Source: a virus. From it: DNA of 36,468 nucleotides. A program made the position numbers and the translations under genes. This document shows, piece after piece, positions 10,064 through 28,028 of the stretch. The stretch spans positions 1 through 36,468 of the IMG/VR virus record IMGVR_UViG_3300042923_000714; one strand, 5' to 3'. The notes beneath the pieces were generated by a model. The model did no database searches, had not been told where the DNA came from, and saw only the letters and a program-made list of their open reading frames with translations. The stretch's first letter is position 1. Every line of letters begins with the position of its first letter.

Positions 10064-11062
10064 TTATTGTGCATGGTGTTTTCTATATGCTTCTTGTTTA
10101 CGCTGCTCTGTTACAGTCGCATATATTTGCGTTGTAGCAGGATCCTCGTGTCCAAGTAGTGCTTGTACATCTGCAAGGTTTGCGCCATTGTCCAATGCCA
10201 AGGTTGCGAATGTATGTCGCATGATATGAGGATGTATGTTTTTCTTAATGCTGGTTCGTGCTGCTATTTGCTTGAAAGACCTTTGTATAGCTCTATTCCC
10301 TAACCTGGTATATGGTTTACGCTCTGTAACAAAGAGTGCTTCACAATCATCTGTACGACTCAACAAGTACTTTTTAAGATGGTAGAAGGCTTTGTAACTA
10401 AAGCAGACTATCCTTTCTTTGTTACCTTTACCAATAACTCTAGCTGTCATGTTCTGCCAGTCTATATCATCCTTACTCATTCCTGATATTTCTGACAGTC
10501 TACTACCGGTAGCATAAAAGGTTTCTACTAATGCTCTTTCTCTTGGAGTTTTGCAAGCTTCTCTAAGTGTTTCAAATTCTTCTACTGAAAGAGCCTTCAC
10601 TATGCGCTTTTCTTGTTTCATTTGGTTTATCTTTCGCATAGGTGACTTAATTACATAATCTTGATTCTCTAACCAACCAAAGAAACTACGTAGTATTGAA
10701 ATCTCTGTTTGTATGGTTGAAGCCTTTAGGTCCTTGCCTCTTGAGAACTCCGCCAAATACAGCCTAATGTCCATTGCTGTAATATCCTCTACATTCTTTG
10801 GCATAAACATTGCAAATCTTTTCAAGTGCTGCGCATATCCTTTTAAGGTCAACATGGAAAGTCCGTCTAATTTCTTCGATGCCAGGTATATTAAGACTCT
10901 CTCTCTCATGTTTGCCATTACTGTTAGGGCTCTTTCTGCAGTCGTTACTTCATAGTCGTTTAATATTAGTTCTAATGTGTTTCTTAAGTTGCCTTGGTCA
11001 ATTGTGGGCTGATCTACCATAACCTTGGTTAATATTTTTATAATGACTTCTTCTTTATGCAT
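10064..11062 (-). CDS. XerC/XerD-like tyrosine recombinase
   Basis: This is a 332-residue recombinase with a SAM-like core-binding domain (about 55-145) and a catalytic domain with Arg188 in TGSRLSEI, HPHIMRH (His279, Arg282), LGHED (His305) and Tyr314 in TTQIYATV. It resembles Xer recombinases more than the AP2-domain integrase at 14938-16014. It sits in the early operon far from attP, so it may resolve multimers or act at another site. ATG 11062 is chosen for its AAAAGGAGTGGTACTAAT leader. An in-frame start at 11104 would add 14 residues without a ribosome site. The function is recombination; the site is unknown. Confidence 0.85.
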   Translation of the reverse strand: MHKEEVIIKILTKVMVDQPTIDQGNLRNTLELILNDYEVTTAERALTVMANMRERVLIYLASKKLDGLSMLTLKGYAQHLKRFAMFMPKNVEDITAMDIRLYLAEFSRGKDLKASTIQTEISILRSFFGWLENQDYVIKSPMRKINQMKQEKRIVKALSVEEFETLREACKTPRERALVETFYATGSRLSEISGMSKDDIDWQNMTARVIGKGNKERIVCFSYKAFYHLKKYLLSRTDDCEALFVTERKPYTRLGNRAIQRSFKQIAARTSIKKNIHPHIMRHTFATLALDNGANLADVQALLGHEDPATTQIYATVTEQRKQEAYRKHHAQ

Positions 11063-11087
11063 ATTAGTACCACTCCTTTTAATTTTG

Positions 11088-11126
11088 TAGGAGTTGAAAA
11101 GCACTTAATATGTGTAGAAACTCCTA
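11088..11126. repeat. Inverted repeat upstream of the XerC/D-like gene
   Basis: The perfect 8-bp arms TAGGAGTT (11088-11095) and AACTCCTA (11119-11126) are separated by 23 bp. A partial direct repeat, TGTAGAAACTC and TGTAAAAACTC, continues on the right. The arrangement lies in the leader of the recombinase gene and could be a recombinase or regulator binding site or an RNA hairpin exposing or hiding the ribosome site. Confidence 0.45.
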
Positions 11127-14281: not shown

Positions 14282-14932
14282 GTGACTAATAAACCTTATA
14301 TTGACGTTAATGAATTTTCAAAAAGGTTATACGATTTAAGGAAAGAAAATAAAATGACAATGGAAGAGCTTGCAACTATATTGGATGAAAGGTATAAGTA
14401 TAAAATTAATAAGAGCCTTATATCTAAATATGAGAAGGCTGTACACGAACCGAATTTCTATTTCATCGACTTAACGGCTAGTATATTTCATGTTTCTTCT
14501 GACTATATGATGGGAAGAAGTAACAATAAGTATGGTGAATCTGTAACTTACAAGAAAATACCTATTATCGGAACTATAGCTGCAGGGATCCCCATACAAG
14601 CACAGGAGGATATATTAGGATGGGAATATGTTGAGCCAGGCGATAAATCTTCATTTTGTTTAAGGGTTAAAGGTGACTCTATGATCGGTGCTAGGATATT
14701 TAATGGAGATATAGTTTTTGTAAGCAAGCAAGAAGAAGTTGAAAATGGAGAAATTGCAGCCATACAAATTGATGGAGAAGAAGCTACGCTAAAAAGATTT
14801 TATCGTGAATATGGGAAAGTAAGGCTACACTCAGAGAATCCTACTATACCTGATATGATATTCGTTACCAAAGATGCCAAAGAAATACGTGTACTGGGTA
14901 AAGTGTCTCATGTAAAATTTGAAGCGAGGTAA
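14282..14932 (+). CDS. CI-like repressor, LexA-type self-cleaving
   Basis: The 216-residue protein maintains lysogeny. Residues about 10-75 are an XRE helix-turn-helix (MTMEELATILDER, NKSLISKYEKAVHEPN). Residues about 90-215 are a peptidase S24/LexA domain with the Ala101-Gly102 cleavage bond in IAAG, the nucleophile Ser133 in KGDSMIG and the general base Lys171 in ATLKRF. It should therefore self-cleave on RecA activation, linking induction to DNA damage. It starts with GTG 14282 behind GAAGGGGTGATAAC. The integrase gene starts 5 bp after its stop, so both are likely on one transcript. Confidence 0.92.
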   Translation: MTNKPYIDVNEFSKRLYDLRKENKMTMEELATILDERYKYKINKSLISKYEKAVHEPNFYFIDLTASIFHVSSDYMMGRSNNKYGESVTYKKIPIIGTIAAGIPIQAQEDILGWEYVEPGDKSSFCLRVKGDSMIGARIFNGDIVFVSKQEEVENGEIAAIQIDGEEATLKRFYREYGKVRLHSENPTIPDMIFVTKDAKEIRVLGKVSHVKFEAR

Positions 14933-14937
14933 ATATT

Positions 14938-16014
14938 ATGGCGAGTATAAAAAAGAATAAGAACGGAACATACTCTGCTACTGTATATGTTGGCAGAGAT
15001 GCCAATGAAAAGATGATTAGAAAATTTGTTACTCGAGATGGGCTAAAAGAATGCAAAGCAGCAGTTAGAGAGCTAGAGCAAGAAATTGAGGATAATGATA
15101 TATCTAATGTAGCAAACATGAAGATGTCAGCTTATATGGATAAATGGATAGAGCTAAATAAGAGCAATCTTGCATCTACTACAATCAAGTGCTATAACAC
15201 ATATATCAACACCCACTTTAAGCCTTATTTTGGGCATATGAAAGTTGATAAAATTACAGATATGCAAATTAAGCAATATATTACAGATAAATCAAAAGAC
15301 TTATCCTCGTGCACCGTTCGCAAGCATTATTTTACGCTCTCAAAAATGATGTATGACGCATTAAGGAGTAAGTCCCCTTGTATTGATATTAAGGCGCCCA
15401 AAAATAGCGAGTACAAGCCTGTAGTGCCAAACGAGAAGGAATTTAAATTAATATGGGATACATTTAAAGAAATGAGTTTAGAAGATGAGTTGATTATATT
15501 ATTAGCAGGTTGGTGTGGTCTTAGAAGGGGCGAGATATTTGCATTAAAGCAGGATGATATTGACCAAGAAGCAGGAACTATAAGAGTTGATGAAGCCGTT
15601 GCATTAAATGAGGATAATTACAAGTTTGATTTTAAAGCCCCTAAATCAGAAAATGGAATTAGAACCATCGCTGCTCCTGATTACTTAATGAAGTTGATAG
15701 AAACTGTACTAATAAACAGAACTAAAGATACAAAAACAATAAACCCAAGTTTAACAACTTATAACCCACATTCTTTTACTAAAAAGTATTTTAAGATAAT
15801 AAACGCAGAAGGTAGTAATTTGCCTAAGACACGATTTCATGATTTAAGACATTACCATGCTACATTGCTATATAAAAACAATGTTCCTGACCATTACGCA
15901 GCCGAGAGATTGGGACATGACATAATGGTATTAAAGAAGATTTATCAGCACTTAGGCATTGAAGTTAAAAAAGAATATGACGATAAAATAAGAAGTATTT
16001 TTGATAAAAAATAA
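14938..16014 (+). CDS. int: Phage integrase (tyrosine recombinase)
   Basis: The enzyme integrates the phage at the attP next to it. The 358 residues comprise an AP2-like arm-binding domain (1-50; KKNKNGTYSATVYVGRD), a SAM-like core-binding domain (about 62-145) and a catalytic domain with Arg196 in GLRRGEI, His301 and Arg304 in HDLRH, His327 in LGHD and Tyr336 in KKIYQHLG. Its 3' end is 168 bp from the tRNA-Trp attP core, and AAAAAACGCACA repeats flank that core as likely arm sites. It shares a transcript with cI. The ATG has GAAGCGAGG upstream. Confidence 0.95.
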   Translation: MASIKKNKNGTYSATVYVGRDANEKMIRKFVTRDGLKECKAAVRELEQEIEDNDISNVANMKMSAYMDKWIELNKSNLASTTIKCYNTYINTHFKPYFGHMKVDKITDMQIKQYITDKSKDLSSCTVRKHYFTLSKMMYDALRSKSPCIDIKAPKNSEYKPVVPNEKEFKLIWDTFKEMSLEDELIILLAGWCGLRRGEIFALKQDDIDQEAGTIRVDEAVALNEDNYKFDFKAPKSENGIRTIAAPDYLMKLIETVLINRTKDTKTINPSLTTYNPHSFTKKYFKIINAEGSNLPKTRFHDLRHYHATLLYKNNVPDHYAAERLGHDIMVLKKIYQHLGIEVKKEYDDKIRSIFDKK

Positions 16015-25752: not shown

Positions 25753-27405
25753 TTACATATTAGCTTCTAATACAGTAACAACTCTTTTTGCTATGAATTC
25801 ACCAGCTTGGTTAAAAAATTCTTCTGTGCCTACATTACCATTAAAGTAAAAGTTGAATATATTCCCTCCGCTTTTACTCAGGATTTTCTTAGATTTATCC
25901 GCTGGAATAACTCTGCTGCCATTAGGCAAATCAACTATCTCTCCACCGCGCTCATTTATTCTTGCAGCTCCACCTTTAAAGTATTGTGTGCCTGTTGCAA
26001 AGGATGGCAACTCTGGTATTTTAAAACCAATCTCAGGTATTTTTATACCAGGTATTAAGTTCGCTGCTTTTATTAAGAGGTTAAAAGGAGTTAATAAACC
26101 TTTAATCCACATGTTCGCACCTTTGATAACAAAATTAATTAAGCCTCTAAATCCATTCTTAACACCAGCCCATAGACCTGCAAAGAAATCTCCCATAGGT
26201 GCAAATGCAGTTTTAATACCTTCCCATAGCGACAATGCTTTAACTTTAATAGTGTCCCAGTTTTTCCACAACAACACACCTATCGCTATCAATGCGCCTA
26301 TTCCTAATGCTACCTGCATCATTGGGTTAGCTAACATACTAGCATTTAATAGCCACTGCATAATAGTCGTAGTTTGAGTAATCTTATTTAATGCTTCAAA
26401 CGCTGCGGCTACTTTAGTAACAACTTGAAAGGCAATAAACGTACCCAGAAGGCCACTAGCTACAGGCATTAACCAATTCATATTATCTTTTACCCATGAT
26501 ATTGAATTGCTCAAATATTCAAAGCCTGTTTTTCCAAGGTTAATTACTTTCTTCATTATCTCATCTATATTTACTCCATCCATGAAAGCTAGCCATTTAG
26601 CAAACAACTTTTCTAGTGGAGGTATAGCATATGCCATAACTTTGGCACCCATATCTTTTATTTTAATTGTCAACGTTCTTAAGCTATTAGCAAAACCAGT
26701 GTTGGTCTTTGTATAGTCACCTTGAGCATCTTTTGATTTTTCAAGCAAGTAGTTATATCTCAGAGTTTGCTTTTCAGCCTCAGACATTTCCTTCCAAGAT
26801 TTCTTTATGCCCTTTTGCAATGCGTATGCTTCCATGCTAGCCACATTCATGTTGATACCCAAGCCTAGCATTGGTTCAGTCTGACCTACCATTGCCGACT
26901 TAATCTTTTCAAAAGCCTCTGCAGGATCTAAGTTATAAAACGATGCAAAATCACCAGCTAAACCAGCTAAACCAGTGCTCATATCTGCCAACTTATTTCC
27001 ACTTATTCCTGATGATTTCATCATGGCTCCTAACGTACCACTAAACTGCTTTGCTTGAAGCTCAGACATACCAAATTGTTTTCCGGCACCTTTGGCAAAG
27101 TCATTTATTTTACTTGTCATAGTGCCAAATGTAGTGTCAACAACGTTCTGAACTTCATTCAAATTACTAGCAAGCATTAAACTATCCTTAGCAAATTTTG
27201 CTATACCCAGGGCTGCTATAGTTCCACCTATCTTCAATGCAACTCCACCAAAAGCACCAGATATAGATTTTCTCATTCGCTTGGCTTGATTCTCTGCTTG
27301 TTTAATTTGTCTTTGAAATTGCTTAGTATTATTAGTTGTCTTATCTATGGTCTTACTAAAATTGTCTTTAAGGTTTAGTATTGTGTTAATTGTTTTACTG
27401 GCCAC
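25753..27405 (-). CDS. Tape measure protein
   Basis: The 550-residue protein has an N-terminal coiled coil (NLKDNFSKTIDKTTNNTKQF to QAENQAKRMRK), a helical middle with hydrophobic spans (LLGTFIAFQVV, ALGIGALIAIGVLLW), and a C-terminal tail tip part. It sets tail length; at about 0.15 nm per residue this suggests a tail near 80 nm (rule of thumb). It starts with GTG 27405 right after the frameshift product of the chaperone gene. It is short for a contractile phage. Confidence 0.92.
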   Translation of the reverse strand: MASKTINTILNLKDNFSKTIDKTTNNTKQFQRQIKQAENQAKRMRKSISGAFGGVALKIGGTIAALGIAKFAKDSLMLASNLNEVQNVVDTTFGTMTSKINDFAKGAGKQFGMSELQAKQFSGTLGAMMKSSGISGNKLADMSTGLAGLAGDFASFYNLDPAEAFEKIKSAMVGQTEPMLGLGINMNVASMEAYALQKGIKKSWKEMSEAEKQTLRYNYLLEKSKDAQGDYTKTNTGFANSLRTLTIKIKDMGAKVMAYAIPPLEKLFAKWLAFMDGVNIDEIMKKVINLGKTGFEYLSNSISWVKDNMNWLMPVASGLLGTFIAFQVVTKVAAAFEALNKITQTTTIMQWLLNASMLANPMMQVALGIGALIAIGVLLWKNWDTIKVKALSLWEGIKTAFAPMGDFFAGLWAGVKNGFRGLINFVIKGANMWIKGLLTPFNLLIKAANLIPGIKIPEIGFKIPELPSFATGTQYFKGGAARINERGGEIVDLPNGSRVIPADKSKKILSKSGGNIFNFYFNGNVGTEEFFNQAGEFIAKRVVTVLEANM

Positions 27406-27414
27406 TTACTCACC

Positions 27415-27588
27415 TCATTTTTCACCGAATAAAGATTTATATTTTTGAATTTCCTCTTTATAAAATTCTTCTCTCGCACAATGCAGAAATACTTTTTCAT
27501 AGTAGTTGGATTTGACTAAGTCATCAAGCTTATGACCTCTTACAACATAAAAAGCATACATGTTGAAATCTGAATCGTGCGCTATTAG
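27415..27588 (-). CDS. -1 frameshift extension of the tail assembly chaperone
   Basis: This frame lacks its own ribosome site and joins the XkdN-like gene through the slip site at 27588-27594. The 57 residues added (LIAHDSDFNMYAFYVVRGHK, then DLVKSNYYEKVFLHCAREEFYKE) give the long form that, in lambda gpGT and related systems, binds the tape measure protein. Its stop overlaps the ribosome site of the tape measure gene. Confidence 0.85.
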   Translation of the reverse strand, partial: LIAHDSDFNMYAFYVVRGHKLDDLVKSNYYEKVFLHCAREEFYKEEIQKYKSLFGEK

Positions 27589-27977
27589 TTTTTTATTGTT
27601 TCAACCTTGTCTGCCATATCAATAAGGTCCATCAGTTGTTCTCCAATTTCCATTATGTCAGCCAAGTTAAACAACTTTTCAATTGTATCAAATGGGTCTA
27701 CTACTTCCAATTCTTTCTGTAACTCAGAGTCATGGAGCATGTTGCATGTATGGTATATTAGCTTCTTATATCCACCAACAATTTTGCTCACTACTTGCAT
27801 GTCTCCCATTTCGTCCATGACATCAAGTATCAAATTATCTTTTGGCTTTTGAAATGTCAAAGTAGCATCCATAGACGTTACATATATTTCTGTTACTTTG
27901 AATTGATCTGCTTCCTTTTGTATCTTCTTAGCTATCAGGTCCTTAAAGGTCGCTTTTTTAGCTTTTTCTTTACTCAT
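27585..27977 (-). CDS. xkdN: Tail assembly chaperone, XkdN-like (short form)
   Basis: The 130-residue short form resembles XkdN-type chaperones: a basic start (KEKAKKATFKDLIAKKIQKE), a beta part (FKVTEIYVTSMDATLTFQKP) and a helical end (LFNLADIMEIGEQLMDLID). It coats the tape measure protein before the tube assembles. ATG 27977 follows GGAGGGAAAT and is chosen over the open frame's upstream start. It ends at a TAA directly after the slip heptamer. A terminator hairpin upstream (27997-28028) would lower its level relative to the tube gene. Confidence 0.85.
   Translation of the reverse strand: MSKEKAKKATFKDLIAKKIQKEADQFKVTEIYVTSMDATLTFQKPKDNLILDVMDEMGDMQVVSKIVGGYKKLIYHTCNMLHDSELQKELEVVDPFDTIEKLFNLADIMEIGEQLMDLIDMADKVETIKN
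27588..27594 (-). promoter_or_regulatory. -1 ribosomal frameshift site A AAA AAC
   Basis: The minus-strand frame reads ATA AAA AAC TAA, so the heptamer A AAA AAC sits directly before the stop codon. After a -1 slip the next codons are CTA ATA GCG and the new frame stays open for 57 codons to a TGA at 27417-27415. This is a classical X XXY YYZ site. Confidence 0.9.
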
Positions 27978-27996
27978 ATTTCCCTCCATAATTAGA

Positions 27997-28028
27997 AGAA
28001 AAAGCACTCATTTAAGAGTGCTTTTTCT
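27997..28028. terminator. Hairpin between tube and chaperone genes
   Basis: AGAAAAAGCACTC and GAGTGCTTTTTCT form a 13-bp perfect stem around a 6-nt loop. On minus the second arm gives a T-run (CTTTTTC), so it can act as a partial terminator after the highly expressed sheath and tube genes. Confidence 0.85.

Follow-up and report, generated by a model that had tools for sequence, protein, structure and literature searches.

A probable programmed -1 frameshift in an XkdN-like tail assembly chaperone gene, and a downstream RNA stem that is long-range in one phage clade

Genes for tail assembly chaperones are known to frameshift in tailed phages, among which the phenomenon is widely conserved (PMC5009743; PMC10274946). 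In phage lambda, the G/GT gene lies between the genes for the tail tube and the tape measure protein and gives a short zero-frame product and, rarely, a -1 fusion formed near the end of the gene (PMC5009743). For two chaperone genes of another cluster, with similarity to that of HK97, one study measured frameshifting at 6 and 7% (PMC3711429). The locus described here lies in a window of 36,468 nt (by which we mean the whole stretch of DNA analysed, IMG/VR record IMGVR_UViG_3300042923_000714, positions 1 to 36,468). Judging from sequence, it is very probably a further frameshifting chaperone gene, in the XkdN group, from which a programmed -1 frameshift of the lambda G/GT type makes two tail assembly chaperones.

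With lambda, the locus shares the position of the gene, the short zero-frame product and a -1 fusion, which is here predicted. It differs in that it belongs to a contractile-tail phage and has an XkdN-type G, the slip site A AAA AAC, a stop directly after the heptamer and a strong positioned stem; the function of T, the -1 extension, is presumptive. The likeness to the XkdN/YqbN family of PBSX-like contractile phages (PF08890, phrog_389) lies in gene position, a weak profile match, the resemblance of the G model to YqbN and a cassette of heptamer, stop and stem, whereas the window's protein falls below the family cut-off, in the sister family phrog_4976, and its stem is long-range, the two arms in PF08890 loci being mostly 4-46 nt apart. 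The tail chaperone gp13 of HK97, a long-tailed non-contractile phage, appears from the model to have a fold related to that of the G part, though the sequence identity in the structural alignment is low (14%). Frameshift sites of the dnaX / IS911 type, too, combine an A-rich heptamer with a stem a few nucleotides downstream, the stimulator in IS911 being a branched structure (PMC5009743); unlike them, the present locus has no consistent Shine-Dalgarno stimulator, its heptamer ends in C, and its stem lies inside the T coding sequence, closing over 81 nt in the window's clade.

In the window the genes follow one another as sheath - tube - G - T - tape measure, the 5' neighbours of G being the tail tube (PF09393) and sheath (PF17482) genes, so that two overlapping ORFs sit between the tube and tape measure genes (Table 1). 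The minus strand, read 5' to 3' at the end of G, is GTT GAA ACA ATA AAA AAC TAA TAG CGC ACG, with an in-phase slippery sequence near the end of the first ORF, and the zero-frame product ends in DKVETIKN*. A first-pass annotation had claimed that the XkdN-like frame ends in ATA AAA AAC TAA, with the slip heptamer immediately before the stop; our reading of the minus strand agrees, and the coordinates hold. The same annotation had the -1 frame continue for 57 codons up to the ribosome site of the tape measure gene, which is likewise what we find: the open -1 frame spans 27600-27415, and its TGA (27417-27415) overlaps that site, GAGGTGAG, upstream of the tape measure start GTG at 27405. It had also held that the -1 frame has neither a start nor a ribosome site of its own; the latter is indeed absent, but an in-frame ATG is present at 27561-27559 (the M of FNMYAFY), with no Shine-Dalgarno-like sequence before it.

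Table 1. Coordinates of the features at the G-T locus (positions in the window)
Feature	Position	Strand	Basis
G ribosome binding site GGAGG	27983..27987	-	sequence
G, XkdN-like tail assembly chaperone, zero frame, 130 aa	27585..27977	-	ORF, phrog_4976, fold model
Slippery heptamer A AAA AAC	27588..27594	-	sequence and conservation
Zero-frame stop TAA	27587-27585	-	directly 3' of heptamer
T, -1 extension (KK + 57 codons + TGA)	27415..27594	-	ORF, conserved domain, dN/dS
Putative stem, 5' arm (first pair 7 nt after heptamer)	27569..27581	-	folding, covariation, synonymous-codon samples
Putative stem, 3' arm (within T coding sequence)	27475..27487	-	folding, covariation
Tape measure protein gene, next downstream of T	25753..27405	-	profile match

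The G ORF matches phrog_4976, a family of tail assembly chaperones, with an E-value of 5e-23, and the XkdN-like phrog_389 more weakly (6e-6). A PF08890 search of the window gave no match, G scoring 12.6 bits against a gathering cut-off of 27. A Foldseek search with the predicted G structure (pLDDT 76) placed three solved proteins at the top: YqbN (3klu), the tail assembly chaperone of HK97 (2ob9) and 3fgx. Their match probabilities are high (0.94-1.00) and their E-values weak (0.04-0.3); as modelled, the G part shares the chaperone fold of YqbN and the HK97 protein. The T part (27418-27594, minus strand) is modelled as a confident all-helical domain (pLDDT 88), and neither sequence nor fold comparisons of this domain with Pfam, PHROGs and the PDB gave anything significant.

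Is the slip site more than a chance string in A-rich DNA? The heptamer alone is not rare, A AAA AAC occurring 17 times in the window against 18.3 expected. What goes beyond chance at the end of G, and carries the case, is that the heptamer is in phase, abuts the stop and is conserved. Searches that used the fusion of the window, or alignments of T or the entire fusion, retrieved viral contigs of the same arrangement, and collapsing at 95% left 42 distinct related loci, one of them a prophage of Clostridium sulfidigenes. An in-phase A AAA AAN stands at the end of G in all 42 (38 AAC, 3 AAG and 1 AAA), including each of the 32 loci that were retrieved by peptide patterns confined to G and hence were not chosen for their slip site. 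The codons at the site are constant (ATA in 29/29, AAA in 42/42, AAC in 38/38), while other conserved columns are mixed and AAC makes up only 28% of the Asn codons in the same loci. Two considerations count less favourably: in E. coli, slippage is weaker on A AAA AAC than on A AAA AAG (PMC5009743), and an upstream Shine-Dalgarno stimulator, an optional element of some bacterial cases, has no consistent place in these loci (mean z about -0.5).

The frame downstream of the heptamer is conserved as a protein. No stop interrupts the -1 frame in any of the 42 loci over the stretch tested. Within the window's clade, purifying selection on this frame is evident from a dN/dS of 0.23, the values for the two remaining frames being 0.84 and 0.95. 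Between the window and its nearest relative, T differs by 11 synonymous and 7 nonsynonymous codons. T is a conserved domain, the conserved part of which starts at the junction, KKLI.

A further element, missed by the earlier reading, is a predicted RNA stem that begins 6-8 nt after the heptamer; stimulatory structures usually start 5-8 nt downstream (PMC4066793). Folding of 60 nt downstream of the heptamer showed little in the window's clade, the stem emerging only at about 110 nt because its partner strand is distant. At this length the folded structures are unusually stable: relative to samples in which the T protein was kept and only synonymous codons were changed, the mean z over the 42 loci is -2.6, as against -0.44 for an upstream control region. 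When a 5' arm of 16 nt was set at varied distances from the heptamer and its best stem scored, the arm at +5 gave a mean z of -2.91, with 76% of the loci in the best 5%, and arms from +13 onwards gave means between -0.55 and +0.09. The arms in the window would pair with one mismatch across 81 nt at -16.8 kcal/mol (sample mean, -9.1), and none of 150 synonymous-codon samples forms as strong a stem. RNAalifold recovers the same long-range stem unprompted, its 13 pairs being formed in 88% of cells as compared to 21-55% for slid controls. Five pairs are changed on both sides, and none of 500 shuffles attains the covariation score; since these shuffles keep relatedness, the synonymous-codon test carries more weight. 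The evidence for the proposed stem is comparative: the window by itself gives a modest z of -1.5 when its entire fold is set against plain shuffles. Rfam identified no known element at the locus, with one chance match far below the cut-off. Selection acts on the stem at the canonical distance from the slip site.

The position of the 5' strand and that of its partner behave differently across lineages. The 5' strand stays at an about constant distance from the heptamer. By the duplex scan, the arms are separated by 74-83 nt in the clade of the window and by 73-78 nt in the C. difficile/Terrisporobacter group; the remaining lineages have gaps of 4-57 nt, with the exception of L061, which has no convincing stem. 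The stem is not universal, there being little or none in L059-L061, L083 and L103.

To place the locus in the wider family, we turn to bona fide PF08890 members. A search of 291 Clostridia genomes with this profile found matches in 38. The XkdN loci read numbered 32, of which two came from a genus search. The gene order and the -1 cassette are the same as in the window: in 31 of the 32 the heptamer is followed by a T ORF in the -1 frame, and at the remaining one (L102) A AAA AAC is present and the contig ends there. Non-conservation of the heptamer and the -1 frame in related phages had been named beforehand as an outcome that would refute a frameshift; the 42 loci and the Clostridia XkdN loci show the opposite, and in both sets variation of the heptamer is confined to the A AAA AAN grammar. 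In the XkdN prophage set the stem takes the same position, with a mean z of -2.2 at +5. The same arrangement is found in isolated phages of Lactobacillus, Streptococcus, Geobacillus/Thermus, Brevibacillus, Psychrobacillus, Terrisporobacter, Fusobacterium, Monoglobales and C. difficile. Taking these lineages together, we lean, by a modest degree, towards the view that the XkdN superfamily has one cassette (A AAA AAN, stop, a spacer of 6-8 nt and a stem), in which the 5' strand stayed fixed while its partner changed place in evolution, forming a local hairpin in some lineages and lying about 80 nt off within T in others, the latter being a long-range structural stimulator of a kind not yet described in phage tail genes.

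Several other explanations of the split arrangement have to be weighed. T could be a separate small protein, translated from a start of its own or through re-initiation behind the G stop, rather than part of a fusion, as might be suggested by the ATG, which lies 33 nt 3' of the slip site, and by the short separate ORF that annotators often call there. This ATG, however, lacks a ribosome site and is not kept in all relatives, the conservation of T extends back to the junction, and neither the fixed AAA AAC codons nor the placement of the stem relative to the heptamer would be explained; we consider a separate T very unlikely. Still less probable appears slippage of RNA polymerase on the A run, whereby some mRNAs would carry an extra A and be read in-frame as G-T. 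The run of six A could be cited in its favor, along with longer runs in two relatives (A7 in L053, A9 in L100), but six A are short for polymerase slippage; nearly all relatives keep the run unlengthened, fixed at A AAA AAC and in phase with the ribosome, and a stem 6-8 nt downstream is a ribosomal signature, not one of the polymerase. As to a sequencing or assembly error, or the decay of a gene, that split one ORF in two, breaks of one base are a common type of error, and phage EJ-1 has both parts in one frame; yet the same break at the same heptamer recurs in dozens of independently sequenced loci, isolates included, and both frames are under selection. Such an origin, already refuted by the conservation, has a negligible probability.

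A different kind of doubt accepts the frameshift and takes the stem to be a by-product of coding constraint that has no role. Such a reading would fit with the three invariant pairs, with the conserved residues that both arms encode (HD.D and LHCAR) and with the lack of a clear stem in a few loci. Against it, the signal holds relative to samples that preserve the protein, and does so at one distance only, and other lineages have the 5' arm in the same position with very different partners, at gaps from 4 to about 80 nt; we deem it unlikely that the stem is a mere by-product.

The programmed -1 frameshift could, then, be pictured as follows. The majority of ribosomes would stop at the TAA and release G, of 130 aa, and a minority, having moved one base backwards at A AAA AAC and paired anew with AAA AAA, would continue into the T domain, yielding a G-T fusion of 187 aa. 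The stem, with its 5' strand placed after a 6-nt spacer, would probably hold the ribosome at the slip site and so promote slippage; the 3' strand that closes it in the window's clade lies within the T coding sequence, after a gap of 81 nt. That the ribosome slips at A AAA AAC we infer, the fusion protein being a prediction from the sequence. By analogy with lambda, G and G-T would bind the tape measure protein and T would recruit the tube protein, and, given these roles, the ratio of G to G-T would matter for tail assembly. The earlier proposal that the two products mirror the lambda G/GT chaperones thus gains support from the heptamer, the -1 domain, the gene order, the fold and the stem.

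What appears to be new is the family-wide XkdN cassette and the long-range stem in the window's clade, which we have not found described. The literature searched for XkdN together with frameshift holds no description of a family-wide cassette, the older key papers being outside that search; a C. difficile phage paper that names XkdN contains 'frameshift' only in its reference list. T, which as the latter part of the chaperone ought to connect the tube with the tape measure, is lacking or wrongly called in all XkdN-type records of split arrangement that were examined, those of C. difficile phages and Firmicutes prophages included: among 15 GenBank/RefSeq relatives with the split arrangement, none has the joined G-T gene annotated, T being absent or given as a short hypothetical protein. 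A fixed heptamer with a movable stem offers a simple handle on how phages tune the G : G-T ratio.

Some observations in individual records may be added. The XkdN-like chaperone is labelled 'portal protein' in OR492275, MW512571 and MZ983385 (L011, L074 and L119), apparently a misannotation that is spreading. In Streptococcus phage EJ-1 (L109, NC_005294), the G and T parts form a single open frame at 559-1155, and in Javan336 (L112), closely related to EJ-1, the two are split and A AAA AAC is present; the single frame of EJ-1 is either a natural in-frame fusion or a sequencing error. At the XkdN locus L100 (G170:C33), nine A stand at the site (AAAAAAAAATAG) with the T ORF in the -1 frame, and transcriptional slippage is conceivable there.

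Elsewhere in the window, a 13-bp terminator-like hairpin (AGAAAAAGCACTC/GAGTGCTTTTTCT) lies at 27997-28028, between the tail tube stop and the G start, and hairpins are found in the same gap in many relatives; it could lower the expression of the chaperone and the tape measure protein relative to that of the tube protein. Judged by eye only, three ORFs resemble tyrosine recombinases (2427-2975, 10064-11104 and 14938-16014), the last of them beside a repressor-like ORF at 14282-14932, and the presence of these recombinase-like and repressor-like ORFs suggests that the phage is temperate.
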